From contig NZ_VUOE01000001.1 of NCBI RefSeq assembly GCF_008386635.1, positions 1,937,318 to 2,001,317 on the forward strand: a DNA stretch of 64,000 bases, written 5' to 3'. A program made the translations under genes and the position numbers. Below the pieces are notes generated by a model. That model saw only the letters and a program-made list of their open reading frames with translations, was not told the origin of the DNA and ran no database searches. This document shows positions 6,792 to 59,886 of this stretch, in pieces. Every line of letters begins with the position of its first letter. Within the stretch, counting starts at the first letter, position 1. Source of the stretch: Maribacter flavus. GTDB lineage: Bacteria > Bacteroidota > Bacteroidia > Flavobacteriales > Flavobacteriaceae.

Positions 6792-6799
6792 ATGGCAAC

Positions 6800-6961: not shown

Positions 6962-6984
6962 GTAAGTTTGTAAAACCTACTTAC
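6962..6984 (+). promoter_or_regulatory. Candidate -7 box and inverted repeat before the hybrid kinase
   Basis: TAAGTTTG at 6963-6970 matches the Bacteroidota -7 consensus TAnnTTTG, 18 bases before the kinase ATG. No good -33 TTTG is seen at 19-21 bp. The box lies inside an inverted repeat, GTAAGT (6962-6967) and ACTTAC (6979-6984), which could be an operator or a short 5'-UTR hairpin. Seen by eye only. Confidence 0.35.
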
Positions 6985-6988
6985 GTTT

Positions 6989-42907: not shown

Positions 42908-44299
42908 TTATTCGTGATTCGTTGCGACCGCGTTGTCGTTTTTCATTTTTATCTTGTCAATAAGCAAGGAACCTAATTTTCTTCCTTGGCCCACGCCTAC
43001 TTCTACAGCGGCCCGGTAATGGATACCCCCGTACATTCTGCTGATTGCAGCCTCGTCCGCAGCTTGGTTGAAAGAAGTAAAACTTCTAACGGGAAGACCA
43101 TAAGGAAGCTCCGTATCGTCATCAAAGCTAAAATCGTCCCCAAAGATATCCGTTAAGGCAGTGGCGGCCGCACCTGAAACAACGCTATGTCCGCTTGTAT
43201 ATTCCGGGAAGGGAGGGGTTTGAAGTATGGGAACCCAGTTTTCGTCAATATGTTGATTTATCAAAGTTTCCGGGCGGATAAGATTACTCCGGTACTTTTC
43301 GTCCCAGCAGCTGATAAAACCATCTGCGATGGCCATAGAAGTTTTGGTATATGCATAAAGTGATTTTTGAAAATCGCTATCTGTTTTTCTGCAGGCAATT
43401 TTAGTAATTCCGATCCAATGGGCCCCTGGGGTAATTTTCTTGGTCGCAAACATCAAATGTCCGCGGGTTACGGATACATACGGATTACAGTCCCAAAATT
43501 TGGCTATGGCCACTTCTTCGGACGTATCGCCAATGGCGGTAATCCGGTTACTGGTTTCGTAGACCTCTAGAAGCTCCTTATAGAATTGGGAGTTCTTGTC
43601 CATGGAGAAGGCCGGAGGCGGTACCGGTTTGAACTGCGCTGCGGAATCCAGGAAAAAGGGACGTATTTTGTTCCAATGGGGTTCAATACCGTCCATATAG
43701 GCAGGTGGGGTGGGTTGCCACCTTGCAGGGTCGTCCGTATCCACCGTAAATTTGGGCATGGTGCGGGTCTGCGGGTAGTTATCCTTGTTCATCCATGCCT
43801 TAATATGCTCCGCAACTTTTTCCCCATAGGCTTTTGAGGCTTCAAATTCCGTCTTGTTGGTGGTTTCCCATTTGTTGAAAAGGCTATCCTGTAAAACGTT
43901 GAATTTGTCCTCTGAAAATATCAGTTGTTTGCTGATGTTCATGTGGGCAATAAGTGCCGCCAAATTGGGATTCACATTTTGTAAGGAGTCCAGCTTTGGT
44001 ATCGGGGTCAATTCATTTACCTGTCCGGCCAAGGAATTATACTCCGGATTTACTTGTGCAATGATTTCGTAGGCCGCAATATTGGGGTAGGCGAATATTC
44101 TACTGGCCACAGGTGGGGAAAAAATGTCGTGTATCATTATCTCTACCACCTTATCAATGGACGTATGCAGGTCTTCTGCCGTTACCTTGATCGGTTCAGT
44201 GCTAGGCTGCTTTTCCGGGGAACAGGAAAAAAAGACCGCTAAAAGCAATACTGCCAAAACTTTCTTGAACATCTTTAATTTCATTTTATTTTTCATCAT
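42908..44299 (-). CDS. Vanadium-dependent haloperoxidase / PAP2-family lipoprotein
   Basis: Protein of 463 residues from ATG 44299 (44296 possible; 44302 is TTG). Lipoprotein signal AVFFSCSPE. Vanadate/phosphate-site motifs of the PAP2/haloperoxidase superfamily: TSGHSVVSGAA with the His of SGH, and ISRMYGGIHYRAAVEVG carrying Arg and the second His. The upstream Lys/Arg motif is probably in TKKITPGAHW. Active enzymes either oxidise halides with H2O2 or dephosphorylate lipids; sequence alone does not decide. It follows the VCBS gene block after a 340-base gap and has its own promoter candidate. Confidence 0.88.
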   Translation of the reverse strand: MMKNKMKLKMFKKVLAVLLLAVFFSCSPEKQPSTEPIKVTAEDLHTSIDKVVEIMIHDIFSPPVASRIFAYPNIAAYEIIAQVNPEYNSLAGQVNELTPIPKLDSLQNVNPNLAALIAHMNISKQLIFSEDKFNVLQDSLFNKWETTNKTEFEASKAYGEKVAEHIKAWMNKDNYPQTRTMPKFTVDTDDPARWQPTPPAYMDGIEPHWNKIRPFFLDSAAQFKPVPPPAFSMDKNSQFYKELLEVYETSNRITAIGDTSEEVAIAKFWDCNPYVSVTRGHLMFATKKITPGAHWIGITKIACRKTDSDFQKSLYAYTKTSMAIADGFISCWDEKYRSNLIRPETLINQHIDENWVPILQTPPFPEYTSGHSVVSGAAATALTDIFGDDFSFDDDTELPYGLPVRSFTSFNQAADEAAISRMYGGIHYRAAVEVGVGQGRKLGSLLIDKIKMKNDNAVATNHE

Positions 44300-44302
44300 C
44301 AA

Positions 44303-44642: not shown

Positions 44643-47600
44643 TCAATTTCCTTTAAGGATATAGGAACGATCGTTATTTGTCAAAATCAGAAGTTTGTTT
44701 TGGGAAATTGGGGCTATTTTTCTCGAATCTGAACCTTTCGGAAGTTCCAGGGATCTTTTATGGATTAAGTTCCTATTGGAATCCATTTGAAGAATCCCCC
44801 CGGGGTTTTCAATGTTTTGGCCCAATTCGTTTGTATGCCCCTTGAAATTTCCAACGTAGTATATACTCCCATCTTCCGATATAAAGAAGTCCTGAATACT
44901 ACTCATTTGTGCAGGCATTGGTAATGGAACTGCTTTGATATTTTCTCCTGGGTTTAGATAGACCATGGAACGAAGTTCCTGTATCCGTTTGGTCTCCATA
45001 ATTTCTTCCTCCTTTTTACCCGTCAAATCCTCGATACCTTCAATTTTTGAAAACTTGGTATAGCTCAAAAACTTCTTCTTTAAATAGGGTAGTTGTTCCG
45101 TGAGCTTATCCTTAGAGGCAAAAGGCACATATTTTCCAAAAAAGTCATAAAAAATAATAGGATCTGGCTGCTGGTTTTCATCAAAATCATCAATGTATAA
45201 TTTCATGGGACGCTCTATACTGGCCTTTATCTTAAAATTTAAACCGGCATTCCCCACCAATAGGTCCGGTTGGCCATTGTTGTCCAAATCCGTTACCGAT
45301 ACGGTATTCCACATTCCGTTTGTGTTTTCCAGGCCCATTTTCTGGGTCTCGTTCAATAACTGGGAACCGCCTTGGTTTATGAGAACCGTAACGGGCATCC
45401 AATCACCTACGATTACTAGGTCCAATAGACCATCGGCATTCAAGTCCGCCCATTCACTGTCCGTCACCATACCTATTCTTTCCTGTTGTAAAACCACGAA
45501 CTTTCCGGTACCATCATTTTTTAAAATATAACTAACGGGAGACAATCCATAACCACCGGGAACGGAACGATTGCCAATGAAAAGATCTTCATAGCCGTCT
45601 CCATCAAAATCCGCGGCAGAAACACTACCTCCATTGGTTTTAATCAAAGGGATGTTGAGGCGTTCAAATGTACCCTTTCCATCGTTCACATAGATACGGT
45701 CTTCCAAATTGGGATTTCCTTCCACCAGTTCATTGCCCCCACTCATTACATAAAGGTCCAGATCACCATCATTTTCAATATCGAATGCGACGGCATCAAC
45801 ATCTTCATAAATGACATCCTTTCTAAGGCTGGTATTTTTATCTTCGGAAAAAGTACCATCGTTATTTCCAAAGTAAAGGGATGGGGATTGATATTTGGCA
45901 CCGCCAATAAAAAGGTCCTCCAAACCATCGCCATTAAAGTCTGCTTTGACCAAGGCAGGGCCTTCGGTGGACAATTTTTCTGGAATAAGACGCTCCCTCT
46001 CGTAGTCAAGATAATTGTTCTCTAAATGGACAAAATTGAAAAATTCATAATCGGTGGCTTCTTCCAGTTCCTTTTTTGGTGTATCAGGTAAATTCGATTT
46101 TCTTCTGATCACATGCTCCATATTGATGCCCAATCCTGTTTCTGATTGTATTTTTCCATCCAACCAATGTATTTGAATGGAATCTATAGCAGTATTGGTT
46201 CCCAAACCAAAATGTAGTTTATGTGTAGAAGAAGACTGAAACCCCTTTACGGTCATAAGTTCTTTTACGTAGCGATCCTCACCAGAAAACACCAGTACCT
46301 TTGAACCATATGGACTCATATATTCTTGATTTCCCTTTAATTTGACCGAAACGTAATTATTGTCCTCATTACGTTTACTTGTGTTCTCAAGTAGACTTGC
46401 CTTTTGATTTATATTATTTACAACAAGGTCAAGATCACCATCATTGTCCAAATCAGAATACGCTGCTCCATTTGAATAGGAGGCATTTAACCCTGAAGTT
46501 TCTGAGAGACGTTCGAAAGTCAGATTTCCGGTATTCCTAAAAATAACATTGGGAATATTTACAGTAGGGATTTGGGCAATGAGCTTGGATTCAATTTCAT
46601 TTTGTTCTTCTTGTTGGTATTTTGAAAAATCGATATTGCTTAGATAATTTATGTAATCCAAGTCATTAGGCCTTTTGTAGATGCCGTTTGTTATAAAAAT
46701 GTCGTTATGGCCGTCATTGTCAAAATCCTGTATCAATGGGGACCAGCTCCAATCCGTGGCATGTGTATTCGTCAAAAGGGTAACATCGGCAAAATAGCCG
46801 CGTCCCGTGTTTAGTTGAAATGTATTTCTGGCATATTGATCTTCAAATCCGAAACCTTTTTTGATTAGGCTGACTTTATCTGAGTCTTCACCGCCAGATC
46901 TCATAAAAATTTGAGCTTCAAAGGGCATCATATCCAGCGAAAACACATCGGGGAGTAAATCGTTGTTTACATCAGCAATATCCACACCCATGGTAAAACG
47001 TGACGTATGGTTGAAATATTCGCTTACCGATTCCCTAAACGTTTTATCTCCTTGGTTTATATAGAGATAATCATTTTCGTGGAAGTCATTGCCCACATAG
47101 ACATCCAACAGTCCATCATTGTTGATATCGGAAACACTTATTGCCAATCCATACCCGAGTGCACTGCTGTATATACCACTGTTATCGGTAACATCCAAGA
47201 AAAGAGGTTTTCCCTCATCTAGCTTGTTTTCATAAAATCGATCTCCGGACAAGGAGTCTTTCTCTTGTCTTAATGAAATATTTCCATAGCTCCTTGTCGT
47301 ATGTACGGAATGGTTTAAGAGATACATATCCTGATCCCCATCATTGTCGTAATCAAAGAAAGCAGCTTGGGTAGAAAACCCGGAAAAATTTAATCCATAC
47401 TCTTTTGCGACTTCTTTAAAAGTAGCATCTCCATTGTTTAGATAAAGTACATTTTGGGATTTAAGACTCTTGTAATTTCCTACCCTGCAGACATAGATAT
47501 CCAAGAAGCCATCATTGTTTACATCGGTCATCGTAGCCCCGGTTGACCAACTAGTATCCATTAGTAAACCAGCTTCCCCAGAAATATCCTTGAATTTTAA

Positions 47601-47903
47601 ACCTCCTAAATTTAAATAGAGTCGGTCTGGTTTTTGGTTGGCCGTTAGGTAGACGTCTTCCAATCCGTCGTTGTTTATATCCCCTATCGCCACGCCACCA
47701 CCATTGTAGTAATATAAATATTCGATGATGTTTAGATCTCCCGTATCCTCAAGGTCATTGGAAAAATCGATTCCGCTGCTATCCGAAGGAACATCCCTGA
47801 AGTAAATAGGAGCCTTTTCCAAAGTAGCCTTATCTTCTGGTACTTTGTTACACGCTAAGAATAGGAATGTAGCTGTTACTAGTAGGAGATTAGCTTTCAT
47901 CAA
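44643..47903 (-). CDS. VCBS/FG-GAP repeat lipoprotein with ASPIC/UnbV domain (third copy)
   Basis: Lipoprotein (FLFLACNKV; Cys18) of 1086 residues. Many FG-GAP/VCBS blades carry calcium-type DxNxDG or DxDxDG loops, such as DINNDGLEDVY, DFDNDGHNDIF and DFNGDGLEDLF, in two propellers (about 60-460 and 640-900). An ASPIC/UnbV domain sits between them (about 510-600; KGFQSSSTHKLHFGLG). Surface-exposed location is likely. Its start overlaps the stop of the second copy by 4 bases. It differs from the other two in lacking the long basic linker after the first blade. Function of this family in Bacteroidota is not established. Confidence 0.9.
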   Translation of the reverse strand: MMKANLLLVTATFLFLACNKVPEDKATLEKAPIYFRDVPSDSSGIDFSNDLEDTGDLNIIEYLYYYNGGGVAIGDINNDGLEDVYLTANQKPDRLYLNLGGLKFKDISGEAGLLMDTSWSTGATMTDVNNDGFLDIYVCRVGNYKSLKSQNVLYLNNGDATFKEVAKEYGLNFSGFSTQAAFFDYDNDGDQDMYLLNHSVHTTRSYGNISLRQEKDSLSGDRFYENKLDEGKPLFLDVTDNSGIYSSALGYGLAISVSDINNDGLLDVYVGNDFHENDYLYINQGDKTFRESVSEYFNHTSRFTMGVDIADVNNDLLPDVFSLDMMPFEAQIFMRSGGEDSDKVSLIKKGFGFEDQYARNTFQLNTGRGYFADVTLLTNTHATDWSWSPLIQDFDNDGHNDIFITNGIYKRPNDLDYINYLSNIDFSKYQQEEQNEIESKLIAQIPTVNIPNVIFRNTGNLTFERLSETSGLNASYSNGAAYSDLDNDGDLDLVVNNINQKASLLENTSKRNEDNNYVSVKLKGNQEYMSPYGSKVLVFSGEDRYVKELMTVKGFQSSSTHKLHFGLGTNTAIDSIQIHWLDGKIQSETGLGINMEHVIRRKSNLPDTPKKELEEATDYEFFNFVHLENNYLDYERERLIPEKLSTEGPALVKADFNGDGLEDLFIGGAKYQSPSLYFGNNDGTFSEDKNTSLRKDVIYEDVDAVAFDIENDGDLDLYVMSGGNELVEGNPNLEDRIYVNDGKGTFERLNIPLIKTNGGSVSAADFDGDGYEDLFIGNRSVPGGYGLSPVSYILKNDGTGKFVVLQQERIGMVTDSEWADLNADGLLDLVIVGDWMPVTVLINQGGSQLLNETQKMGLENTNGMWNTVSVTDLDNNGQPDLLVGNAGLNFKIKASIERPMKLYIDDFDENQQPDPIIFYDFFGKYVPFASKDKLTEQLPYLKKKFLSYTKFSKIEGIEDLTGKKEEEIMETKRIQELRSMVYLNPGENIKAVPLPMPAQMSSIQDFFISEDGSIYYVGNFKGHTNELGQNIENPGGILQMDSNRNLIHKRSLELPKGSDSRKIAPISQNKLLILTNNDRSYILKGN

Positions 47904-50900
47904 TTGAATTTAAATATTGCTAGGGAGTCTCGATTTCTACTTACGAATAACTTTTGGTCGATGATGCCCATGTCCCTAATTTCACCTTTAACTTTGAAGC
48001 CCTTTCCGCTTTTTATTGTTTCAAATTTAAGTCCTCCCTTGTTTTCCATGTATACACCATAGGAAGCATCATATCGTCCCACCTCTGGTTTTACATTGTA
48101 TAGATTGCCTCCCAACACGATGTCCTGGTCGCCATCTCCATCAAAATCGTTCGTGGCAATTGCATAGGTAGTTGAAAATTGGGCAGCGATGGGGAGTGGC
48201 AAAACCTCGAAAGTCAAGTTACCGTTATTTACAAGTATAACGGATTCAAGGGTGTTGGCTTCCAATGTTCTTGCTTCTTTCAAGGCCTCCTCCGAAAAAA
48301 TAGCTGACACAGATGCATCTTTAAAGGACTCATAATCCGGATATTTTTTTGTAATAGCCTTAATTTGTTCGATCAAATCATGTCTAAGTGCATAGGGGTA
48401 ATCCTGTCCATCCTCTCTTCTAAATGTGAGTATGGGGTCAATGAACCCGTTTCCGTCAAAATCGGCAGCGTATAAGCGTATGGGCCGGTCTTTACTGGCT
48501 TTAAACCGACTGTTCAATCCGTGGTTTCCAACAATGAAATCAACATCGCCGTCACCGTCCAAATCACTTGGTAAAATGGTGTTCCACCAGCCTTTTAAAT
48601 CCAATAACGGATTATCAGCCTTTCTGACAAATTTTCCTGTTTCGTTGATATATATTTCGATTCCCATAAATTCACCAACAATGATCAAATCTTCATCCCC
48701 GTCATCATCCAGATCTTGGAAGAGGGCCGAGGTAATCATACCCATGCCCTGAAAATCTGTTCCGGCAGTCATCGTGATATCGGTAAAATTGCCGGTTCCG
48801 TCATTCTCCAACAAAAAGCCCGAACCGGCCATGCCATATTTTAAGGGGATCATACGTTCCCCCACAAATATATCCAAGTCACCATCTTGGTCTATATCAG
48901 AAACATCGATAGTGGAAGAACTATGAAAGGTGTTGCTAACAGGAAGCTTTTGATCGGATAATTTAAAATTCCCTTTACCATCGTTTATATAGAGACGGTC
49001 CAAGAATTCAGCTGAATACTGTGAATATTCGATACCACCACTGCACACGTACAGATCCATGTCGTTATCCCCATCGGCATCGAAAAATATGCTTTCCATG
49101 TCCTCTGAATTTTTGCTTTGGTCAAAGTCGGAGGTCTTTTTTTGAACAAAGCCATTATCGGTGTTGATAAAAAGACTTGGCGGGTTGCCTTTTGATCCAC
49201 CTATGAATAGGTCTATCCTTCCATCACCATTGACATCGCCCAAAGCCATTTTAGGACCTTCGGTACTTACCATGTGATTAAGAAGACGATCCCTGTCAAA
49301 GTCAACGAAGCGGTTTTCTTTATGGACAAAGTCCAATAAACCTTCAACTTTTTGGAACAGAGGAGTTTCCAAATTGGATTTGTCCAATGCCTGTACTTCC
49401 GCTTCTTTTTCATATAAAATAATGGTCCGGTTTACGTTGATGTCATTCAGCTGGGTAATTTTCCCTGAGGGCCAAGTGATTTTTACCGAAACGTTTTGAT
49501 TGTTGGGCAATCCGATATTCGGCCGAATGTCCATGCTGGATTGAAATCCCCGTACGGGCTGATTTTCCACCGAGATATTGTACGGTAGCACCTCAATTTT
49601 GGAACCAACGGCATAGGTGTTTTTGCCTTCGCCCCGTAAATCAAACTTGAGGTAATTCGATTTTTTGGAATCCATGGTAGTATTCTCATAGACAAAAGAT
49701 TCCATGTTAAGGTTATTTACTACCAGGTCCAAGTCTCCGTCATTATCCAAATCCCCATAGGCAGCCCCGTTTGAAAAACTCTCCACAAGCAAACCGGATT
49801 CCTCGTATTTTTTGAATTCCAAATTACCAAGGTTTTTATAGGCATGGTTTTCAACTTTGTTCGAAGGAATTAGGTCAATGAGTTTGGCATAGTTCACCGA
49901 ATCTGTCGTAATCATGGATTTGAGAATTTCGGTATTGGAAATGTAAGTTAGATAATCTTGGTCCGTTAAATCCTGATACACTCCGTTGGCGATAAAAAGG
50001 TCTTTAAGGCCATCATGGTCCATGTCGAATATCAAGGCGCCCCAACTCCAATCCGATGCTTCCACGCCACTTAACCTGCCTATTTCGCTAAATGTATTGT
50101 CCGCATTGTTTAGCTGGAACGTATTCCTTGTAAACTGATGGTAATATCCATTATTAAGGTTTAACTGGTATTTGTTCCAATCTTCAAAAGTGGTTACCGT
50201 CTTTAATCGTTCATATTCCGATGGAAGCATTTCCGTAACGAAGATATCGTTATAGCCGTCATTATTGATATCCGCCATATCCGCTCCCATGGAAGCGACG
50301 CTTGTGGCGGTAATTTGATTTTCCAGAGATTCCGTAAAAGTGCCATCCTGATTGTTGATATATAGATAATCACGCTCGAAAAAATCATTGGAAACATAAA
50401 TGTCCTCCCAGCCATCGTTGTCCACATCGCCAACGGTAACCCCCAGTCCAAAACCTATGACACTTCCATAAATCCCAGCCTTTTCGCTAATATCCACAAA
50501 GGTACCATCTACATTTTCCATGAGTTTGTCACCACCAAGGATATCGCGTTTGTTACGTTCGTTCTTTTTTAGATCAAAACCACCGATTGCCTTATATGAA
50601 TTATTAAGTATGTAGACATCCAAATCCCCGTCCTTGTCAAAATCAAAAAAAGAAGCGTGCGTAGAAAAGCCTTTGTCGTCCAGATTATAGTCGGCCGCCA
50701 TTTCTTTAAAGGTACCGTCCTGTTGATTGATAAAAAGTTCGTTCTGCTTGTTCTCGCCATTTAAGTCGCCGGAATTACAAACGTAGATGTCCAGAAAGCC
50801 ATCTGCATTGATATCTACCATGCTTACTCCGGTTGACCATGGTCTTGTGCCTCCCACCTGGGCCTTTTCCGTAATATCCTCGAATTGAAAATTGCCTTTG

Positions 50901-51229
50901 TTGAGATAGAGTCTATTCTCTTTTTGATTGGCAATGAAGTAAATATCGGGTAGACTATCGTTGTTTATATCGCCAATGGCAACGCCTCCACCATTGTAAT
51001 AGTTACGATATCTGTAGACATTAAACTCTTTGTCATATGTTAAATCGTTTACGAAATCAATGCCAGTAGTTTTGGCCGAACGTAATTTGAAAACTGTTCC
51101 TTTTTCATCATTGGCGGGCTCACTGGTTTTGTCTTTGCAGGAGGACAGGAGCAAAGTCAAAAAAGCAAATGCGCCTACTCTTAAAAGCATCTTATCAAAC
51201 GTCGTTTTATTTTTTTTCTTCAAGCACAT
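47900..51229 (-). CDS. VCBS/FG-GAP repeat lipoprotein with ASPIC/UnbV domain (second copy)
   Basis: Protein of 1109 residues. Lipoprotein signal LTLLLSSCKDK; the start is 51229 or the in-frame ATG 51190, which gives a shorter signal. Blades with DINNDSLPDIYF, DFDKDGDLDVYIL, DMDHDGLKDLF, DLDNDGDLDLVV and DLDGDGDVDFIVG loops form two propellers around an ASPIC/UnbV domain with RGFQSSMDIRPNIGL. It is closer to the copy at 51781 than to the third: both share a YNGGGVA first blade and a FSTHASFFDFDKDGD / LSVHSAFFDYDKDGD segment. It overlaps the upstream small lipoprotein gene by 23 bases, so the block is translationally linked. Confidence 0.9.
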   Translation of the reverse strand: MCLKKKNKTTFDKMLLRVGAFAFLTLLLSSCKDKTSEPANDEKGTVFKLRSAKTTGIDFVNDLTYDKEFNVYRYRNYYNGGGVAIGDINNDSLPDIYFIANQKENRLYLNKGNFQFEDITEKAQVGGTRPWSTGVSMVDINADGFLDIYVCNSGDLNGENKQNELFINQQDGTFKEMAADYNLDDKGFSTHASFFDFDKDGDLDVYILNNSYKAIGGFDLKKNERNKRDILGGDKLMENVDGTFVDISEKAGIYGSVIGFGLGVTVGDVDNDGWEDIYVSNDFFERDYLYINNQDGTFTESLENQITATSVASMGADMADINNDGYNDIFVTEMLPSEYERLKTVTTFEDWNKYQLNLNNGYYHQFTRNTFQLNNADNTFSEIGRLSGVEASDWSWGALIFDMDHDGLKDLFIANGVYQDLTDQDYLTYISNTEILKSMITTDSVNYAKLIDLIPSNKVENHAYKNLGNLEFKKYEESGLLVESFSNGAAYGDLDNDGDLDLVVNNLNMESFVYENTTMDSKKSNYLKFDLRGEGKNTYAVGSKIEVLPYNISVENQPVRGFQSSMDIRPNIGLPNNQNVSVKITWPSGKITQLNDINVNRTIILYEKEAEVQALDKSNLETPLFQKVEGLLDFVHKENRFVDFDRDRLLNHMVSTEGPKMALGDVNGDGRIDLFIGGSKGNPPSLFINTDNGFVQKKTSDFDQSKNSEDMESIFFDADGDNDMDLYVCSGGIEYSQYSAEFLDRLYINDGKGNFKLSDQKLPVSNTFHSSSTIDVSDIDQDGDLDIFVGERMIPLKYGMAGSGFLLENDGTGNFTDITMTAGTDFQGMGMITSALFQDLDDDGDEDLIIVGEFMGIEIYINETGKFVRKADNPLLDLKGWWNTILPSDLDGDGDVDFIVGNHGLNSRFKASKDRPIRLYAADFDGNGFIDPILTFRREDGQDYPYALRHDLIEQIKAITKKYPDYESFKDASVSAIFSEEALKEARTLEANTLESVILVNNGNLTFEVLPLPIAAQFSTTYAIATNDFDGDGDQDIVLGGNLYNVKPEVGRYDASYGVYMENKGGLKFETIKSGKGFKVKGEIRDMGIIDQKLFVSRNRDSLAIFKFN

Positions 51230-51821
51230 ACCTTAGGTCGTCTATTTTTGCCTTTACAATGCGCTCGTCATCTAAGGGCCTTATCACTATTCTGCGGTTT
51301 CCGTCAATCTTTACGAGTAGATGGGTACTATCCTTCTCTAAAGGAACCTTAATGAAATCATTTCCAGGATACCACTTTTTTAAGGTATCCATAACTACTG
51401 GAACCAATTTATTTGCTTGCAACTCTTTGTTCCAAATGGACCATGCGGTATAGAAAAACTGAAGATCCATTCCTGTCATAATCTTTTCATTATTGAAATT
51501 TCCTGCAAAGAGAAGGGTAATTTCTGATTCCATGGGTGCCTCCGGCCTCAAAGGTAATTTATATTTTACGGACTCATTCTGGGGGCCATTGGAGACCAAA
51601 CCTTGCTGGTTCAGTTTCCAACAAGCACTAAAAAATTCCATTCTATGTTGACCGAATTTCAAATTAAAAAGTAGAGAGTCGTGAATGATGCCGGTGGCCA
51701 TCTCACGCTTTATAAGTTTCGAATAATCTGAACCACTGGAACAGTTTAAGATTAATAATAACAAAAAGGGGATGCCAATTCTATTGATTATTCTTGAATT
51801 CATAAAAAAGAACTTCTTCAT
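51207..51821 (-). CDS. Small lipoprotein of unknown function within the VCBS block
   Basis: Protein of 204 residues if started at ATG 51821 (GGAA 8 bases upstream); ATG 51803 is an alternative. Lipoprotein signal LLLLILNCSSG. The mature part is alpha/beta with HRMEFFSACWKLN, FFYTAWSIWNKELQ and HLLVKIDGNRRIVIRPLDD. I do not recognise a family. The gene overlaps both neighbouring VCBS genes (41 and 23 bases), which argues for tight co-expression and possibly a stoichiometric partner of the VCBS proteins. Confidence 0.8.
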   Translation of the reverse strand: MKKFFFMNSRIINRIGIPFLLLLILNCSSGSDYSKLIKREMATGIIHDSLLFNLKFGQHRMEFFSACWKLNQQGLVSNGPQNESVKYKLPLRPEAPMESEITLLFAGNFNNEKIMTGMDLQFFYTAWSIWNKELQANKLVPVVMDTLKKWYPGNDFIKVPLEKDSTHLLVKIDGNRRIVIRPLDDERIVKAKIDDLRYVLEEKK

Positions 51822-54800
51822 TATTATTTCCAATCGTTAGTATTTTTTTTCCTTTTAAAGTAACCCATTCCAAAGCCCGTATTTGCCCTTCTATAAATAG
51901 AGGATTCACGTTAGCTTCAGAATTTTGAGAAATAATCGGTCCAAAGATAGCCCATCCTTTTGAAGCATCATACCTCCCGAATTGAGGTTTTACCATGTAT
52001 TGATTTCCACCAAGAAATAAATCTTGGTATCCATCGTCATTAATATCCTCCATGGAGATTGCATATACTGGGGCATACTGTATTTCATCTGGAAGTACCT
52101 TTGCTTTGAAGCTTCCGCTTTCGTTAATAAATAGCGTACTTTCAATGATATCAAGTTCAGCGATATAGCATTTTGCAAGTTGCTCCTGGAAAAAGATCAT
52201 GGTCATATCGGCTTTGGCATAATCCTTATAGTATAAGAATTTCTTTTTCAAGGAAGGTATTTGGGAAACCAATTCATCTTTATCCGCTATTGGGTAATAT
52301 TTACCGTTCCGTTCTTTACAAATCAATTGTTCTTGAAAACCATTCCCATCAAAATCGGCAATGAATATCTTCATATTCTTCTCGTAAAAAGCATTGCGGC
52401 CAATATTCCCAATAATGAGGTCTAAATCCCCATCTTCATCAATATCTTTTAACTCGATGGCCTTCCAGAGACCCGAACTCCCCGAGAATCCAAAAGCAGT
52501 ACTTTGATCTTCAAAAATTCCCCCTTTGTTGATGAAAACCTTTATAGGCATCCATTCGCCAACGACTAGGAGGTCATCCCATCCATCGCCGTTGACATCT
52601 CCCCATTGGGCATCGGTAATCATCCCCAAATTTTTAAAAAGCGGGTTTTCCTTTGTGGCGAAATTCCCTTTTCCATCATTTTCTAGAATATATCCCGATC
52701 CCGGAAGACCATACAAATTGGTTTTGTAGCGTTCACCAACAAATAGGTCAATATCTCCATCCTTGTCAAAATCCGACGTCGTTACGACCGAAGAACTAAA
52801 TGTAGAACTAAAATTGGGCGAGCTTTGGGATTTTATAAAACTATTGCCATCATTGATGTAATAGGCATCATTAAGTTCAATGGAATATGGTGAAAATGCC
52901 TTTCCTCCGTGACAGACATATAAATCCAGGTCCCCATCCCCATCCCCATCAAAAAAAACGGCATCGGTATCTTCGGAGCCTGCATCCTTTAGAAATGGTT
53001 TAGCATGTTCAGTATACCCATTATCATTGGAAATGAACAACTTACCAGCTTGGTTTTTTGCTCCTCCAACAAAGAAGTCGGGTTTACCATCCGCATTTAT
53101 GTCCGCTGTGGTCAGGGCCGGACCTTCATTACTACTCATATGGGGCAATAACCTTTCGTTGTCAAAATCAATATAACGGTTCTCCGTATGCTTAAAATGA
53201 AATAATGGATTGATTCTACCAAGGGGAGAGGCATACTTTTCCATACTAGGTAGGGACTCCAATCGAGAGGTTTTTTTATTGGGTTGGTCGATTCTATATT
53301 TTTGGTTTGTTCTTAAATCGGTTTGTGTACTAACGGTACCGTTTGGCCATGTAATTATCAAGGAATCGATTTTTGTGCGATTTCCAACTCCAAAATGGAG
53401 GCCATAGGGCACACTACTTTGAAAACCCCTTGATACGAAGTTCTCTCCGTACCCTATGACTTTGCCATTGGACTTAATCATGGCCTTGGCACCGATAGCC
53501 CTTAATTCTTTGTCAAAAAATTCTAATTGTATGCTTCGTTGATTAAGTGTATCGGTTGTATTTTCATAGAGGAAGGAAGGCATATTTACGTTATTCACTA
53601 CCAAATCTAAATCTCCATCATTGTCCAAATCTCCATAAGCACTTCCGTTACTAAAACTGGGAGTGTCCAAACCCCAAGTTTCTACAGTGTTTTCAAAATT
53701 AAAGTTTCCTTTATTTCTAAAAACGGAATTTGCGACTGCTTGTGAAGGCATGGCATCTATAAGTGTTGTGATGACATTTTTTTCTTTTTGGGCAATTCTA
53801 TTTCTAATTTTTTCCTCATTGGCATCAAAGGCCAAATAGTCACGGTCCAATAGATCCTTGTAAATTCCATTACTTACAAATATGTCCTTGAATCCGTCAT
53901 TGTCCATATCAAAAATGAGGGCACCCCAACTCCATTCCGTTCCGGATACATTGGCCTGTCTACTTACTTCTAAAAAGGATCCGTTACCAAGATTCTTTTG
54001 TAGTGCATTCCTAGCAAATTGGTTAAAATAGCCCTGTTTTTCTGCAAGCTGTTGCTTGTCCCAGGATTCGAACAGGGTTTTGGTTTTTTTACGTTCTTCC
54101 GTGGCGGGCAGCATTTCTGTAACGATAAGGTCTGTCAACATGTCGTTGTCCAAATCCGCTAGATCCGCCCCCATGGACCCCATGGATATCGATTCAAAGT
54201 ATTCTTCTAGATTTTCGGTAAAACCGCCTTTAGTATCGTTGATATATAAATAGTCTCTTTCAAAAAAATCATTTGAAATGAAAATATCCGTCCAATTATC
54301 GTTGTTGAAATCGCCTAATGTTATTCCAAGTCCAAAACCAATTTTGCTGGAGTATATTCCAACCTCATGGGTTATATCAATAAATTTGCCATCATCGTTC
54401 CTAAGAAATTTATTGCCATTTTTATCGGGTATCATTCGTAAGTCCTTTTTCAAATCGAAGCCGCCTATGGAACGAAGCGAGTTGTTCAGGATATACACAT
54501 CCAAATCCCCATCCTTGTCATAATCAAAAAAGGCGGAATGCACCGATAGTCCTTCAATATCCAGACCGTATTCTTTGGAAGATTCCGTAAAGGTAAGGTC
54601 ACCGTTGTTTATGAAGAGTTCATTGTGGCGATTGGAACCCTCTGGTTTTCCAGCTTTACATACATATAGGTCCAAAAGGCCATCCTTATTTATGTCTGCA
54701 AAGGTAGCTCCTGTGGACCACACGTTAGGGCAAGCTACTCCTGCGTTGATTGTAATATCTTCAAATTGCCAATTTCCTTTATTCAGAAACAATTTGTTAT

Positions 54801-55074
54801 CTACCATGTTGCCCGTAAAATATATATCGATAAGGCCGTCATTATTTACATCGCCCAAGGCTACACCTCCGCCATTATAGAAGTTTCTGTAGAGGTAGGG
54901 GTTAAATTGCTCATCGTACACTAAATTATTTTCAAAATGAATACCCGTAGTGCTGTCACGCAAATTAAATAGAGGAATAAATGGGTTAGCTTCTTCCTTT
55001 TTACAGCTAAAAAGTGATAGTGTTAGAAAAGCGAAAATAAAATTCCAAAAGAATAGGGAACGAATAACTTTCAT
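51781..55074 (-). CDS. VCBS/FG-GAP repeat lipoprotein with ASPIC/UnbV domain (first copy)
   Basis: Lipoprotein (SLFSCKKEE; Cys24) of 1097 residues. Two FG-GAP/VCBS propellers with DVNNDGLIDIYF, DINKDGLLDLYV, DMDNDGFKDIF, DGDGDGDLDLYV and DIDEDGDLDLIIG calcium-type loops flank an ASPIC/UnbV domain (SRGFQSSVPYGLHFGVG). First gene after SusD, but a terminator and a new -7 box lie between, so it probably starts a separate transcript. The start is followed by a basic n-region and a strong hydrophobic core, typical of an outer-surface lipoprotein. Confidence 0.9.
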   Translation of the reverse strand: MKVIRSLFFWNFIFAFLTLSLFSCKKEEANPFIPLFNLRDSTTGIHFENNLVYDEQFNPYLYRNFYNGGGVALGDVNNDGLIDIYFTGNMVDNKLFLNKGNWQFEDITINAGVACPNVWSTGATFADINKDGLLDLYVCKAGKPEGSNRHNELFINNGDLTFTESSKEYGLDIEGLSVHSAFFDYDKDGDLDVYILNNSLRSIGGFDLKKDLRMIPDKNGNKFLRNDDGKFIDITHEVGIYSSKIGFGLGITLGDFNNDNWTDIFISNDFFERDYLYINDTKGGFTENLEEYFESISMGSMGADLADLDNDMLTDLIVTEMLPATEERKKTKTLFESWDKQQLAEKQGYFNQFARNALQKNLGNGSFLEVSRQANVSGTEWSWGALIFDMDNDGFKDIFVSNGIYKDLLDRDYLAFDANEEKIRNRIAQKEKNVITTLIDAMPSQAVANSVFRNKGNFNFENTVETWGLDTPSFSNGSAYGDLDNDGDLDLVVNNVNMPSFLYENTTDTLNQRSIQLEFFDKELRAIGAKAMIKSNGKVIGYGENFVSRGFQSSVPYGLHFGVGNRTKIDSLIITWPNGTVSTQTDLRTNQKYRIDQPNKKTSRLESLPSMEKYASPLGRINPLFHFKHTENRYIDFDNERLLPHMSSNEGPALTTADINADGKPDFFVGGAKNQAGKLFISNDNGYTEHAKPFLKDAGSEDTDAVFFDGDGDGDLDLYVCHGGKAFSPYSIELNDAYYINDGNSFIKSQSSPNFSSTFSSSVVTTSDFDKDGDIDLFVGERYKTNLYGLPGSGYILENDGKGNFATKENPLFKNLGMITDAQWGDVNGDGWDDLLVVGEWMPIKVFINKGGIFEDQSTAFGFSGSSGLWKAIELKDIDEDGDLDLIIGNIGRNAFYEKNMKIFIADFDGNGFQEQLICKERNGKYYPIADKDELVSQIPSLKKKFLYYKDYAKADMTMIFFQEQLAKCYIAELDIIESTLFINESGSFKAKVLPDEIQYAPVYAISMEDINDDGYQDLFLGGNQYMVKPQFGRYDASKGWAIFGPIISQNSEANVNPLFIEGQIRALEWVTLKGKKILTIGNNNEEVLFYEFKNNQ

Positions 55075-55113
55075 GGGTATTGATAACCTGTCTTGGGTAG
55101 CAAGAATTTATTA

Positions 55114-55121
55114 CAAAGGTA
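55114..55121 (-). promoter_or_regulatory. Putative -7 box of the VCBS gene block
   Basis: Minus-strand TACCTTTG is a perfect TAnnTTTG match, about 40 bases before the first VCBS ATG. The -33 position falls in the T tract of the susD terminator, so terminator and promoter overlap. Confidence 0.5.
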
Positions 55122-55130
55122 TATATCTTA

Positions 55131-55165
55131 GTAAAAAAAGGGCTGTTCTTACGAACAACCCTTTC
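55131..55165 (-). terminator. Rho-independent terminator after susD
   Basis: A 12-position stem with loop GTAA on the minus strand (arms 55153-55164 and 55137-55148), 11 Watson-Crick pairs plus one G-U, followed by seven T residues. It lies 23 bases past the susD stop. The clearest terminator in the window; it should strongly reduce transcription from susCD into the VCBS genes. Confidence 0.85.
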
Positions 55166-55187
55166 AAAATTATAATTACTAAATCTC

Positions 55188-56780
55188 TTAATATCCAGGA
55201 TTCTGTGTTAAAGTTCCATTTGATGCATTGATTTGAGCAATTGGGATAGGCATCAAAGACCTAAAGGCATCCGTGTTGGTTTTTTCCCACCATACATCGT
55301 CAAAGGTTCCAAAACGAATTTGGTCTGTTCTTCTGCTTGATTCCTGGAACATCTCACGACCTCTTTCCGCTAAGAATCCGGCCGCATCAATAGAAGTTAA
55401 TGGTGCTACACCAGCTCTAGTTCTGATTGCATTTACATCAGGTAAGGAAAGACTCCAATCACCTGCTGCCCTCGCACGGGCTTCCCCACGCATTAAGTAA
55501 ACATCGCCCAATCTTATAATTGGATAGTCGTTGTTCATATCCTGTCTTCCCAAAACTTCAAAACTAAATTTCTTCATACGGGCACCTGATTGTCTTAATG
55601 AATTAGGTTCCAACTCGTTGATTTCAGGAGTATAAACCACTTGAAGATCGTCATCATCCGATGCGAAATCAATCAGTGCATTTCCGGAGAAGTCCGTTTG
55701 TGGACCCACCAAGAAATTAGCTTCTTTACGTGCATCCCCATCTTCATAACTGTTGTAGAATTCTTCCAAAACCTGGAATCCATTCCATGGAGCAGCGTCC
55801 AAGCCATAAGTTAACTGGCTGGGTCCGTGTAAAGTCATTTGATTGAAGTTCATTCCGCCAAGACCAACACTACTATATTCAATGGACCAGATGATTTCTG
55901 GATTATTCTCATTATTGGGTGCGAATACGGTGGCATATCCTTCTAGAGTCTCTGGGTCAGAGTCAACTTCTGGTCTTTTTGCCAAGTTTGGTGCTACGCA
56001 GCCCTCATCACAAAGAATGTATGGACTGTTGTCAATGATATAGGACGCCGCCCAATCCGCTTCTTGATATCTCGCCGTACCCGTATACACTTCTGCATTC
56101 AGGTACAATTTTGCCAAGAGGCCTAATGCAGCATATTGGTTAATACGGTAGTTATTAACTTCAGTGCCTAAAGGGCTACTAGATAAGTCCAAAGAAGCTG
56201 TAACTGATGAAATACCTAAAGCTGCCAATAACTCATCTTCCACAAATTGGAAGACCTCGGCACGACTGGCTTGTGGTGGATCTTCACCAGGTGAAGTTAC
56301 AATTTTAACTCTTCCAAAAGTATCCAACAATCTGTAGTAGAAATACGCACGTAGTGCTCTTGCCTGGGCTGTTTGGTTAGCATCTAGATTTCCTCCTGAA
56401 AGAGCTGTATTTACCTCACCGATACCACCATAAGCATGGTTCCAGGTTTCCCCGATTCGTTCGTGAGCAGCATCCCATGTATGTCGGTGTAGTTGTATCC
56501 ATATACCACCGTCAAACCAGTCACCTCCTTTTTGGCCAACGGCCATTTCATCGGATGTAACACTTTGGGTGGCAAACCAGCCTGTGTTACCAGCTGAACC
56601 GTCTCTTAGTCTTGAATAGGAACTTAAAAGTGGCCCGGTGCTGCCACCACTGCCTCCGGTTGTTACACCTTCAATGGAAAATTCTTCAGTCAAGGAGTCT
56701 TCTAACTCATCATCTAAATCGGTACAAGAGAATGCAATCAATGCAACACTTGCCAATGTTATTTTAATAAATCGTTTCAT
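55188..56780 (-). CDS. SusD/RagB-family outer-membrane nutrient-binding lipoprotein
   Basis: Protein of 530 residues from ATG 56780 (MKRFIKITLASVALIAFSC; lipid-modified Cys19); the frame begins 8 residues earlier, near the SusC stop. SusD hallmarks: N-terminal TPR-like helices with ARALRAYFYYRLLDTFG, and the C-terminal GEARARA and RGREMFQESSRR motifs. A Gly/Ser-rich linker (TTGGSGGSTG) follows the signal. It caps the SusC channel at the cell surface and binds the glycan. Ten bases downstream of susC, and followed by a strong terminator. Confidence 0.94.
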   Translation of the reverse strand: MKRFIKITLASVALIAFSCTDLDDELEDSLTEEFSIEGVTTGGSGGSTGPLLSSYSRLRDGSAGNTGWFATQSVTSDEMAVGQKGGDWFDGGIWIQLHRHTWDAAHERIGETWNHAYGGIGEVNTALSGGNLDANQTAQARALRAYFYYRLLDTFGRVKIVTSPGEDPPQASRAEVFQFVEDELLAALGISSVTASLDLSSSPLGTEVNNYRINQYAALGLLAKLYLNAEVYTGTARYQEADWAASYIIDNSPYILCDEGCVAPNLAKRPEVDSDPETLEGYATVFAPNNENNPEIIWSIEYSSVGLGGMNFNQMTLHGPSQLTYGLDAAPWNGFQVLEEFYNSYEDGDARKEANFLVGPQTDFSGNALIDFASDDDDLQVVYTPEINELEPNSLRQSGARMKKFSFEVLGRQDMNNDYPIIRLGDVYLMRGEARARAAGDWSLSLPDVNAIRTRAGVAPLTSIDAAGFLAERGREMFQESSRRTDQIRFGTFDDVWWEKTNTDAFRSLMPIPIAQINASNGTLTQNPGY

Positions 56781-56790
56781 AGTATTTTTT

Positions 56791-59778
56791 TTAGAAATTA
56801 ACATTCAATCCAAGAGTTATGGTTGTTTGTGTAAAATAAGCTTCTCTTCTTTCAATACCAGGAACCAATGGATTAGCTGGTCCGGATCTTAAATCACCAA
56901 GACTACCACCATCTGCCAAATTTGGATCCGGGTTAATACCGTCATATCCAGTTATTGTGAATAGGTTTTGACCAGCTAAAGAAAGCCTTAAACCTTTGAT
57001 ATAGCTATCTGGGTTCATATCAAAGTTATATCCTACTGACATGTTATCCAAGCGAAGGAAGTCTGCCTTCTCAACATAATAGTCACTAAATTGGGCTGTT
57101 CTTATGTTCGGGTTTGCATTGTCTGTATTTACAAAGTTATAGGAGGCTTGAGAACCAATTATGGGTTCATAGAAGGCCCTAAAACTATTTACCAAGCTAT
57201 GTCCTACAACAGCTCTGAAGAATACATTGGCATCCCAATTTCCGAATTTTACTTGGTTTGTCCAACCCAATTCAAAATCTGGAAGACCTGTACCCAATAC
57301 TCTAAAGTCGGCATCTTCATCCAATGCACTACCTTGTCCGGTCACCAAATTTCCATCACCGTTGATATCACTTAAAATAGGTGTTCCAGAGGCATCCAAT
57401 TCTCCGGACCAAACAGGTCCCCAAATTTGTCCAACTTCCTCACCTTCTTTTACACGTACGACAAAGGTGTTGTTTTGACCTGGTGCACCCAAATTACCCA
57501 AAACTTGGTCACCTTGTGGGTTCTCTTCCAAAATTGTTTTGTTATGAGTAAAGATAAGCCCAGTATTGTATTTTAGGTTTTCCTTTGCTATCAAATCATA
57601 GTTTACAGAAAATTCAACACCGTTAACACCTAGTGTTCCTGCATTTTCCCAACGTTGGCTAAAACCATTGAATTCAGAGGATTCAACGTTAGCTAGGATA
57701 ATGAAGTCCCTGATATCTCTTGTAAAGAAATCAAGTGTTGCGCCTAGACGATCGGTTGCAAACTCAAAACCAAGGTTGATTTCCGATTTTTCTTCCCATT
57801 TTAGGTCTGGGTTGGCAGCACGACCTCCAGCTTGTGTTGTGGCAGCCCCACTTTGACCGTCGGCACCGTTCTGAACGTTAAATATCTGCTGATCCAATCC
57901 TACTTGTGGTGGGTTAGCTCCGGTAACACCCCAACCGAGTCGTGCTTTTAAAAGATTAACGTTGCTTAGGTTCAAGTACTTGTTCAAATCCGCACCTACG
58001 GCGACCGCAGGAAAGATACCCCATTGGTTTTCGGTACCAAAGCGGCTAGAACCTTCACGGCTCAAGGCAGCGTTTAAGTAAATGGCATCATCAAAAGTGG
58101 CGTTTACACGACCAAACATTCTAATAATACGGTCATCGTCCTGTCTGGAACTACTAGCCTGTACGCGACCACCTTCCAATAAATCCTGGGCATCTTGGAT
58201 TCTGTTGCTAAAGTCAAAATCAACTCCGGCAGGGAAATCACCCAATGAGAAAAAGTTGAAATTTTGATCGGTTTCCTGGAAGGAATACCCACCGGTAACC
58301 GTTAAATTTAATAAGTCGCTAACTTTATTAGTATAAGTAGCATAGGTTTCGAACAAAGTGAAATTACGTTGAAAATTTGAGAAGTTCGCGAGACCTCTAC
58401 GTGTTGGACTTAAAGCATTACCTCTCCAAAGATTCGTTGTTGGATAGTACTGATTCGCATCCAGTTTTTCGTCTTCTTTGGCATAATTCACATTGATAGA
58501 AAGTGCATCGGAAATTTTGTAATCCAAATTGATGTTGTAATTCAAAGTAGTATTGTCCCTGTCATTCCTGTTCTGATTGGCTATGGCCACTGGGTTAAAA
58601 CTGTCAAAGAGCCCCAAGGTTTCAAAGTAACCACCAAATTGTGCCGAGTTAAAGGCAAAAGGTGCGTCATCCCCAAAAATAGGTGCGGTAGGGTTGTAAC
58701 TGGTAGCATAACGTAAGGCTTCATTAAATCCTACTTGTGAATCCCTAGTCGTAAAGGCGGTATTTACGGTTACTTTTAGTTTGTCATCAAACAATCTTCC
58801 CGTAAAATTAGTACGGAAATTGGTTTGCTGAAAACCGGAGTTTACCAAAATTCCATCTGTGTCCCTAAAGTTTGCAGCAACACGGTAGGTCATGTTTTCA
58901 CTACCTCCAGATGCGGATACGTTGTGTACTTGGGCAACACCTGTTTGGGTAACTTCATCCCTCCAATCAGTGTCACTTCCCAAATCATTACCCCCAGCCG
59001 CTAGAAACTCTTCACGGTTCATGATGCTAATCTGATTGGCAATGGTAGAGACTCCCAATTGTCCATTATAGGATACTTGTAGTGGTTGACCACTTTTTCC
59101 GCTTTTCGTAGTAATTACGATAACCCCTGAAGAAGCACGGGAGCCATAAATTGCAGCTGCAGAACCATCTTTCAAAACAGTTATATTTTGAATATCAGCA
59201 GGATCAACACTATCCAAAGATCCACCTAAGATACCATCAATTACCACTAAGGGCTCTTGGTTACCACCAACTGTTGACAATCCACGCAAACGAATTGTAG
59301 GGGCTTGGTTAGGGTTTCCCCCTGGATTGGCCACTGTAAGACCAGCAACCTTTCCTTGTAAAAGTTGTGCAGGAGCTTGAACCACACCTTGGTTAAAATC
59401 TTCTACATTAACACTGGTAACCGCCGTAGTAATTTCTTTTTTGGCCTGGCTACCATATCCAACAACTACAACTTCCTCTAAAGCCTGAGCATCTTCTTGT
59501 AAAGTGACATTAATGGTACTTTGACCATTTACAGCAATCTCGGTCGATTTGTAGCCGATGTAACTAATAACCAAGACAGCATCGTTCCCAACGGAAAGGG
59601 AGTAATTACCATCAAAATCTGTCTGGGTTCCATTTGTGGTACCTTTTTCAACAACGCTGGCTCCGGGTAGCGGGCCGCTTGCGTCAGAAACGGTACCGGA
59701 AACCTCCTGAGCCTGAGCTATACCAAAAGTCAAAAAGGCTCCCAGTACAACTAAGCTTTTTAGTAGCGTAATCTTCAT
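56791..59778 (-). CDS. SusC/RagA-family TonB-dependent outer-membrane transporter
   Basis: Protein of 995 residues with a signal peptide (TFGIAQAQ), an N-terminal carboxypeptidase-regulatory-like domain (about 24-100; GTVSDASGPLPGASV), the SusC TonB-box-like VVVGYGSQ, a plug domain (PTIRLRGLSTVGGN) and a 22-strand barrel ending in an aromatic residue (LGLNVNF). It imports oligosaccharides with SusD using TonB energy. LacI, beta-phosphoglucomutase and GH65 genes diverge from it, which points to a maltose- or other alpha-glucan oligosaccharide. A LacI-type operator is 93 bases upstream of its start. Confidence 0.94.
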   Translation of the reverse strand: MKITLLKSLVVLGAFLTFGIAQAQEVSGTVSDASGPLPGASVVEKGTTNGTQTDFDGNYSLSVGNDAVLVISYIGYKSTEIAVNGQSTINVTLQEDAQALEEVVVVGYGSQAKKEITTAVTSVNVEDFNQGVVQAPAQLLQGKVAGLTVANPGGNPNQAPTIRLRGLSTVGGNQEPLVVIDGILGGSLDSVDPADIQNITVLKDGSAAAIYGSRASSGVIVITTKSGKSGQPLQVSYNGQLGVSTIANQISIMNREEFLAAGGNDLGSDTDWRDEVTQTGVAQVHNVSASGGSENMTYRVAANFRDTDGILVNSGFQQTNFRTNFTGRLFDDKLKVTVNTAFTTRDSQVGFNEALRYATSYNPTAPIFGDDAPFAFNSAQFGGYFETLGLFDSFNPVAIANQNRNDRDNTTLNYNINLDYKISDALSINVNYAKEDEKLDANQYYPTTNLWRGNALSPTRRGLANFSNFQRNFTLFETYATYTNKVSDLLNLTVTGGYSFQETDQNFNFFSLGDFPAGVDFDFSNRIQDAQDLLEGGRVQASSSRQDDDRIIRMFGRVNATFDDAIYLNAALSREGSSRFGTENQWGIFPAVAVGADLNKYLNLSNVNLLKARLGWGVTGANPPQVGLDQQIFNVQNGADGQSGAATTQAGGRAANPDLKWEEKSEINLGFEFATDRLGATLDFFTRDIRDFIILANVESSEFNGFSQRWENAGTLGVNGVEFSVNYDLIAKENLKYNTGLIFTHNKTILEENPQGDQVLGNLGAPGQNNTFVVRVKEGEEVGQIWGPVWSGELDASGTPILSDINGDGNLVTGQGSALDEDADFRVLGTGLPDFELGWTNQVKFGNWDANVFFRAVVGHSLVNSFRAFYEPIIGSQASYNFVNTDNANPNIRTAQFSDYYVEKADFLRLDNMSVGYNFDMNPDSYIKGLRLSLAGQNLFTITGYDGINPDPNLADGGSLGDLRSGPANPLVPGIERREAYFTQTTITLGLNVNF

Positions 59779-59870: not shown

Positions 59871-59886
59871 ACGAAAACGGTTTCGT
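59871..59886. promoter_or_regulatory. LacI-family operator upstream of susC
   Basis: ACGAAAACGGTTTCGT has perfect six-base arms ACGAAA/TTTCGT around ACGG, with the central CG typical of LacI-family operators. It lies in the susC-lacI divergent region. The position upstream of the -33 of susC fits activation better than simple occlusion (inference). Confidence 0.75.

Follow-up and report, generated by a model that had tools for sequence, protein, structure and literature searches.

Three ASPIC/VCBS double-propeller lipoproteins and a small lipoprotein behind a SusCD pair of Maribacter flavus: a candidate import locus for small alpha-glucosides

The stretch of DNA analysed here (the window) comprises 64,000 nucleotides of Maribacter flavus (assembly GCF_008386635.1, contig NZ_VUOE01000001.1, positions 1,937,318 to 2,001,317). 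It contains a conserved gene cassette, in which a SusC-type transporter and a SusD-type lipoprotein are followed by three large lipoproteins with FG-GAP/VCBS repeats and an ASPIC domain (VA, VB and VC, named by position and together called V proteins), with a small lipoprotein (SML) encoded between VA and VB. In our preferred reading, which we judge could equally prove right or wrong, the locus imports small alpha-glucosides across the outer membrane under LacI control, with the V proteins having taken the place of SusE/F-like binding proteins. The cassette is laid out as follows:

56791..59778, minus strand: SusC-type TonB-dependent outer membrane transporter of 995 amino acids (TIGR04056, 639.2 bits, cut-off 368.25), with an ortholog in the cassettes of relatives.
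55188..56804, minus strand: SusD-type lipoprotein (PF07980 and PF14322; PDB entries 3jys, 9.6e-21, and 3ck7, SusD, 2.3e-17), the true start of which is probably an ATG eight codons inside the open reading frame (ORF).
51781..55074, minus strand: VA, FG-GAP/VCBS and ASPIC double-propeller lipoprotein of 1097 amino acids (PF13517 in 9 stretches, PF07593), assigned to position A by its clade.
51207..51821, minus strand: SML, 204 amino acids from ATG (51207..51833 and 208 amino acids from TTG).
47900..51229, minus strand: VB, FG-GAP/VCBS and ASPIC double-propeller lipoprotein of 1109 amino acids (PF13517 in 10 stretches, PF07593), position B, with an AlphaFold model that matches CRTAC1.
44643..47903, minus strand: VC, FG-GAP/VCBS and ASPIC double-propeller lipoprotein of 1086 amino acids from TTG (PF13517 in 8 stretches, PF07593), assigned to position C by its clade.

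The FG-GAP_3 stretches of the V proteins and their single UnbV_ASPIC domains all score above the Pfam cut-off, in agreement with a first-pass annotation made from the sequence alone, which had described three tandem VCBS/ASPIC lipoproteins of 1086–1109 residues after SusCD, each with two propellers around the ASPIC domain. An AlphaFold model of VB (mean pLDDT 76, pTM 0.74, 125 of 1109 residues below 50) is mostly beta-structure; from the model and the Pfam positions, we read it as two propeller halves flanking an ASPIC part at about residues 520–610. The closest fold in the PDB is that of murine CRTAC1 (PDB entry 9etn), with a Foldseek E-value of 3.4e-23 over 649 columns and a TM-score of 0.71 by target length and 0.36 by query length. 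The sequence profile also matches CRTAC1 (4e-20) and integrin alpha-6 (1e-4). All three V proteins thus share the FG-GAP repeats and PF07593 with the CRTAC1/ASPIC-UnbV group, to which the CRTAC1 fold is added, at moderate confidence, for the VB model. The bacterial proteins differ from CRTAC1 in being twice its length, in having a second propeller-like half and a lipoprotein signal, and in coming as three kinds in one operon. When 24 sequences of each are aligned, 225 of 1097 residues are invariant in VA and 285 of 1109 in VB, many of them the Asp, Asn and Gly residues of calcium-type loops. ASPIC/UnbV-VCBS proteins are present in several copies in each of the 24 cassette genomes searched, and no assigned role for those of marine Bacteroidota was found in the open-licence literature.

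The cassette is conserved as a unit. Among 199 genomes of the same family, SML is present in 24, including that of the window, always as one copy per genome. The order SusC-SusD-VA-SML-VB-VC is kept in the 23 relatives, with the exceptions of L038, where VC is missing after VB, and of L040 and L041, which are cut at contig ends; in L046, SusC is split over two frames. When named genomes were scanned with the VB alignment, at least 589 candidate loci were obtained, of which the best 80 were analysed. These span Flavobacteriia, Cytophagales, Saprospiraceae and Bacteroidales, including Maribacter, Algibacter, Winogradskyella, Roseivirga, Fulvivirga, Algoriphagus, Phaeodactylibacter and assemblies of Saprospiraceae and Bacteroidales, the closest to the window being Maribacter sp. 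4G9 (91% in VB). V genes are located on both sides of SML in 71 of the 80 loci, 53 of these being complete with SusC and SusD, and on one side only in three (L114, L118 and L128, the last with SML and VB on opposite strands); an SML call is absent from six (L102, L104, L108, L112, L130 and L131), among which L112 is a contig of 3.3 kb. The conserved synteny with SusCD on which the first-pass annotation had staked its proposal therefore recurs, both in the family and in the best named loci, and the association of SML with V genes holds in a sample of the whole phylum. There, 27 of 395 genomes contain SML; 22 of them have V genes at most 1.5 kb away on both sides of it, four on a single side and one on neither (L197, in genome G233).

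In nearly every locus, the V set is placed right behind SusD, and V-type paralogues elsewhere in the window's own genome likewise follow SusCD-like pairs. Four such additional ASPIC genes are found, in L055, L056 and L057, behind more distant pairs; L057 contains two of them, one of half length, with a peroxidase-like gene in between. Several cassettes show local elaborations. One extra ORF is inserted between SML and VB in L123, L124 and L126, and a gene of about 650–690 amino acids and without recognised identity between VB and VC in L091, L109, L122 and L138, with an additional second SusC-like gene in L091 and L109. In L134 (Catalimonadaceae bacterium JC749), SML and VB appear to be duplicated in tandem, although the duplication may be an effect of the assembly.

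The three positions largely correspond to separate branches of the V family. When 264 V-type proteins are placed in a tree, the largest A clade unites 62 of 81 position-A proteins with no foreign member (support 1.0), the largest B clade 83 of 88 position-B proteins with two foreign members (support 0.67) and the largest C clade 70 of 74 position-C proteins with three (support 1.0); the 19 outlying position-A proteins all come from lower-ranked loci. In a second, smaller tree of 177 proteins, rooted at the midpoint, all 42 A proteins group together (support 0.93), as do all 42 B proteins (support only 0.49), and 34 of 37 C proteins form one clade (support 0.89). In this tree, A and B make up one lineage together with the second-from-last V gene of a sister type of locus, described below, while C is grouped with the other V genes of that type. 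Most of the 21 controls (18) are outside both lineages and three join the C lineage. The sequences therefore point to well-supported position clades for A and C and a weakly supported one for B, with the sister type likewise pairing V genes of the AB and C lineages. The V-type genes of L149, L154 and L156, which adjoin no SusC or SusD call, cluster with the terminal V gene of the sister type.

SML belongs to no family that could be recognised, as the first-pass annotation had stated: it has no match in Pfam, NCBIfam or PHROG, and the best E-value in a profile search of the PDB is 0.083. Cys31 is invariant across 24 sequences. The AlphaFold model has a pLDDT of 90 and matches no PDB fold at an E-value of 0.001. 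A relationship to DUF4309 was considered and rejected, the best Foldseek match (DUF4309 protein YjgB, E-value 5.5e-3, TM-score 0.39) being too weak.

Divergent from the SusC operon, a regulator and sugar genes are located, which the first-pass annotation had missed, as it had the operator-like site between them and the cassette and the iodoperoxidase homologue treated further on:

59871..59886, no strand assigned: LacI-type operator-like site ACGAAACCGTTTTCGT (read on the SusC strand), about 107 bases before SusC and with one mismatch to ACGAAAACGTTTTCGT.
60133..61149, plus strand: LacI-family regulator (PF00356, PF13377).
61354..62004, plus strand: beta-phosphoglucomutase (TIGR01990, 230 bits, cut-off 189.4).
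62058..63998, plus strand: GH65 enzyme, extending past the end of the window (PF03632, 394.2 bits; PF03636, 214.5 bits), which would be of the maltose-phosphorylase type.

Beyond the window (L058), the GH65 gene continues and is followed by a GH13 gene (L058:731-2500), the start of which, judged by eye, lacks a signal peptide.

The operator-like site is the only match with up to three mismatches in the 64 kb. Dinucleotide shuffles of the window contain 0.46 matches on average and at least one match in 36 of 100 cases; because chance matches are this common, it is the position of the site and its conservation that carry the weight. In 17 of 23 cassettes, that of the window included, the 350 bases upstream of SusC contain a CGAAAACGTTTTCG site with at most three mismatches, and all 17 have in fact two mismatches or fewer. 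Among the controls, such a site precedes SusC in three of 16 cases (p 0.001 between the two sets), and it appears in 0.3% of mononucleotide shuffles. Several Cytophagales have, by eye, a related form, TTGCAAACGTTTGCG. It may be supposed that the LacI protein binds to the site at 59871–59886 and that the operon genes are transcribed together.

The flanks were surveyed for up to three ORFs on each side of the cassette and compared with those of 23 control ASPIC loci, three from the window's own genome and 20 picked from nine relatives. By similarity to the LacI protein of the window, a regulator of this kind is found beside 17 of 24 cassettes and one of 23 controls (p 2e-6). A Pfam scan, covering all 99 case ORFs and 114 of 118 control ORFs (four long ones were omitted), gives 17 and 4 LacI ORFs, respectively (p 4e-4 if the four ORFs represent four loci), the control count thus varying with the method. 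At least one gene for beta-phosphoglucomutase, GH65, GH97, GH37 or GH13 flanks 11 of 24 cassettes and none of the 23 controls (p 2e-4), and a gene for a transporter of the major facilitator superfamily (MFS) resembling sucrose symporters (a weak assignment: 103 bits, cut-off 511) flanks eight and none, respectively; singly, the enrichment of GH65 and of beta-phosphoglucomutase only reaches p 0.02. SSS transporters occur at similar numbers beside both (five of 24 and four of 23). Counts by similarity favour the case loci, because several of the models were built from these; the Pfam tally is less biased. In that tally, GH65 is found in six and GH97 in four case ORFs, neither being among the 25 control families listed (down to three ORFs), where sulfatases (five ORFs), GH43 (four) and GH10 (three) appear instead.

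Generally, the recognised flanking genes are of small-sugar type, coding for GH65 phosphorylase, beta-phosphoglucomutase, GH97, GH37 trehalase, sugar transporters and kinases, and a Pfam scan of the window proteins revealed no known depolymerase or surface enzyme in the operon. The proposal of the first-pass annotation that the lipoproteins capture or process a polymer is therefore not supported, and a polymer-specific role was rejected in view of the flanking genes. For the window, the sugar would be maltose or a maltodextrin, and in relatives it may be trehalose, sucrose or a similar compound. In more distant relatives, the flanks contain GH37 trehalase, an FGGY kinase with MIP and GlpD, DUF1080, PSD1/PSCyt, GH127-like and Gfo/Idh-like genes; since the flanks change in this way, the sugar probably varies. 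The names of the GH127-like and Gfo/Idh-like genes were assigned by eye and are taken as presumptive. In L107, L108, L111 and L121 the cassette is located beside an FGGY kinase and a MIP channel, with a GlpD-like gene in three of the four; the kinase of L111 is a glycerol kinase by NCBIfam, and L107 has an additional gene of the GH37 cluster. Use of glucosylglycerol is possible in these four. DUF1080, a family of 3-keto-disaccharide hydrolases, is found with a Gfo/Idh-like gene downstream of the cassette in L052, L070, L075, L080 and L095 (assigned by eye, and tested with Pfam for the DUF1080 gene of L052), and GH127-like genes adjoin the cassettes of L115, L120, L123, L124 and L126.

SusR, SusF and SusG are components of the Bacteroides Sus system. 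The locus shares the tandem of SusC and SusD with that system, and the best NCBIfam model for its SusD is that of starch-binding SusD (NF033071), at 123.9 bits and thus below the cut-off of 725. Here, SusE and a recognised surface amylase are absent from the operon and a LacI regulator takes the place of SusR. The SusE domain PF14292 has no match in the window's own genome; it is present in five of the 24 cassette genomes, never at the cassette. With its SusC-SusD tandem, carbohydrate enzymes and LacI gene, the locus has the gene content of a SusCD-type polysaccharide or oligosaccharide utilisation locus (PUL). Having few enzymes (one GH65 and one GH13 nearby) and no SusE, it resembles the published reduced or open-SusD alpha-glucan PULs. 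According to excerpts of the respective papers, reduced alpha-glucan PULs without SusE and with one GH13 and one GH65 were present in all Maribacter isolates of one study, which also described trehalose PULs and bloom-expressed SusCD proteins related to theirs (PMC6298971), and open-SusD alpha-glucan PULs are known for instance from Muricauda sp. MAR_2010_75, where SusCD is abundant on extract, glycogen and xylan and GH13 and GH65 are less so (PMC11093988). The open form is characterised by a SusD that lacks a 17-residue loop and two ligand residues. The system was thus not wholly undescribed, as had been suggested: its SusCD-GH65-GH13 half matches these PULs. Excerpts of the two papers mention neither V proteins nor SML nor the peroxidase, and the words VCBS, FG-GAP and haloperoxidase are absent from their main texts. 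Excerpts of PMC9296495, PMC8490876 and PMC5613140 likewise contain nothing on V genes.

Downstream of VC, after a gap of 340 bases, a gene for a putative iodoperoxidase is located, followed by a gene called P8 here:

42908..44302, minus strand: vanadium haloperoxidase-like lipoprotein, homologous to ZgVIPO1 (PDB entries 4cit and 4usz, 757.7 bits, residues 12–462, 71% identity).
41927..42808, minus strand: P8, a downstream accessory gene in some loci, with no Pfam match above the cut-off.

The similarity to ZgVIPO1, the vanadium iodoperoxidase of Zobellia, extends over nearly the full length, and the alignment shows no differences in the TSGHSV and ISRMYGGIHYRAA segments; that the protein oxidises iodide is putative. 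In 19 of 24 genomes, a peroxidase gene is found no more than 7 kb from the cassette. Of the best 80 named loci, 39 contain one, and homologues (E-value at most 1e-100) are found in 175 of 397 family genomes. We therefore consider it an accessory and not part of the core. Its place also varies: it is between SML and VB in L123 and L126 and upstream in L093. P8 is present in four of the best 80 named loci (L059, L061, L067 and L086) and in most sister loci.

Twenty further peroxidase contexts, chosen from the stronger matches in genomes outside the known SML set and including the upstream side for 18 of them, reveal a second type of locus. Five are SML cassettes (G758, G753, G607, G602 and G724) with the peroxidase a few genes downstream. 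Thirteen are of a sister type (type II), in which two or three V genes stand immediately before the peroxidase; SML was not detected in these. The remaining two (L222 and L226) have no V gene inside the 20 kb examined. The sister type has flanks similar to those of the SML cassettes and the same site, and it likewise carries the peroxidase and V genes from both lineages; GH65 and beta-phosphoglucomutase flank seven of the 13 sister loci and four of the five SML cassettes, and the exact word of the window, ACGAAACCGTTTTCGT, precedes SusC in six of 11 sister loci tested. It differs in having a more distant SusCD pair and a different order and number of V genes, and its SusD is often separated from the latter by XylB/XylA-type genes and a symporter. 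The peroxidase of one sister locus, in genome G001, which is probably of Zobellia, is 98% identical to ZgVIPO1, so a close relative of ZgVIPO1 is encoded behind V genes.

In the mechanism that we propose, SusC would be the TonB-driven channel and SusD its lid. SusE, SusF and a surface amylase would be replaced by three CRTAC1-like double-propeller lipoproteins with calcium loops, from two old lineages, which together with SML would sit with SusCD as a heteromeric set, binding the sugar or positioning it for uptake. GH65, beta-phosphoglucomutase and GH13 would then degrade it inside the cell, and the vanadium peroxidase would be a frequent accessory. Surface exposure, complex formation and sugar binding by the V proteins and SML are all conjectured in this scheme; judging from the sequences, a surface complex is plausible. 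Several observations weigh against the scheme as a whole. Sugar binding by the V proteins is putative only, and SML may even face the periplasm, because it has few acidic residues after its Cys (a rough count, in which the wrong Cys was taken in some sequences). A site with up to three mismatches is found in just 26 of 51 named loci, and its form is the general one of the LacI family. Genes of alpha-glucoside type, even when the sucrose-like MFS transporter and PfkB are counted, occur in only 20 of the best 80 named loci and 11 of 23 family loci, many of these stretches ending soon after the cassette, and some loci carry the GH127-like, the DUF1080 and Gfo/Idh-like or the PSD1/PSCyt genes instead. 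The single-family enrichments of GH97, XylA, XylB-type, GH13 and PfkB genes in 24 cassettes relative to 23 controls are not significant. Control flanks also contain GH31 (three ORFs), the family that includes alpha-glucosidases, MFS_1 (six ORFs, against 12 case ORFs) and SSF (four, against five). Lastly, the high abundance of the Muricauda SusCD on xylan besides glycogen, as far as excerpts of PMC11093988 go, does not point to alpha-glucosides alone; such a response to xylan would be consistent with the XylA and XylB-type genes found close to several loci.

Other functions can be envisaged for the V proteins. They might be surface enzymes of an unrecognised kind (lyase, hydrolase or oxidoreductase, for example) acting on the sugar ahead of its import, a role that the operon leaves vacant and with which the very many invariant residues of VA and VB would agree. 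We consider this unlikely, as many of these residues belong to the calcium-type loops and the nearest structures, by sequence and by fold, are those of CRTAC1 and, at weaker similarity, of integrin alpha chains and further propeller proteins, not of sugar enzymes. The same resemblance to integrins and CRTAC1, with the calcium-type loop repeats, would suit a calcium-dependent adhesin or structural scaffold through which the cell holds on to glycan surfaces, SusCD being merely co-regulated; the near-constant position of the V genes right behind SusD, repeated by the paralogues of the same genome, makes this improbable. The function of SML can be questioned separately. It is possible, although we lean against it, that SML is not a part of the surface but serves SusC and the V proteins as a factor for assembly or for coupling in the periplasm, which would be compatible with sugar import as proposed. 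The scarcity of acidic residues after the Cys, roughly counted as it is, would agree with this; the match to YjgB is too weak to be of use.

The peroxidase raises the question whether the locus is a surface halide and peroxide module, in which sugar uptake would feed the production of H2O2 and the iodoperoxidase, with calcium-binding V proteins, would oxidise iodide. The gene is close to most family cassettes, and V genes directly precede it in the 13 sister loci, once with near-identity to ZgVIPO1. By analogy, iodine uptake by Arenibacter C-21 requires glucose, oxygen and calcium (PMC5064120). This link is nothing but an analogy, no oxidase that forms H2O2 was identified in the cassette, and the peroxidase is present in about half of the best named loci, at a variable place, and in a share of the family genomes far above that of SML. 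We rate a module of this kind as rather improbable. An extension of the import reading would combine these elements into a phylum-wide machine, consisting of SusCD, a heteromeric ring or tower of CRTAC1-like double propellers of two lineages and SML, which imports small, diffusible glucosides of osmolyte type, with the iodoperoxidase coupling uptake to halide chemistry at the surface. This is speculative and, in our opinion, has a small chance of being right. If it were true, it would provide a function for bacterial ASPIC/UnbV proteins. The import reading itself, without this extension, links three ASPIC/UnbV-VCBS proteins and a new lipoprotein family with a single regulator, operator-like site and class of sugars. 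What were unknown surface proteins thereby become a testable import system, with homologues of a characterised iodoperoxidase placed beside it.

The genes of the cassette are tightly packed. The overlaps of 41, 23 and 4 bases noted in the first-pass annotation are present as ORF geometry, yet their extent depends on the choice of start codons. The 41 bases between VA and SML assume the ATG start of SML. The 23 bases between SML and VB assume the first ATG of VB; an internal ATG, which gives a cleaner signal peptide, turns the overlap into a gap of 16 bases. The 4 bases between VB and VC assume the TTG start of VC and shrink to a single base with the following ATG. In a tally of the window and its relatives, using the starts of the longest ORFs, VA and SML overlap in 23 of 24 cassettes, SML and VB in 10 of 24 (being at most 30 bases apart in all 24) and VB and VC in 10 of 22. 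The relatives conserve tight packing rather than exact overlap.

Two other regions of the window may be mentioned. The gene at 38245–41955 is one that we take to be metallophosphoesterase-like. At positions 1936–9382, three successive ORFs of similar size, 797–804 amino acids, are located on the plus strand.

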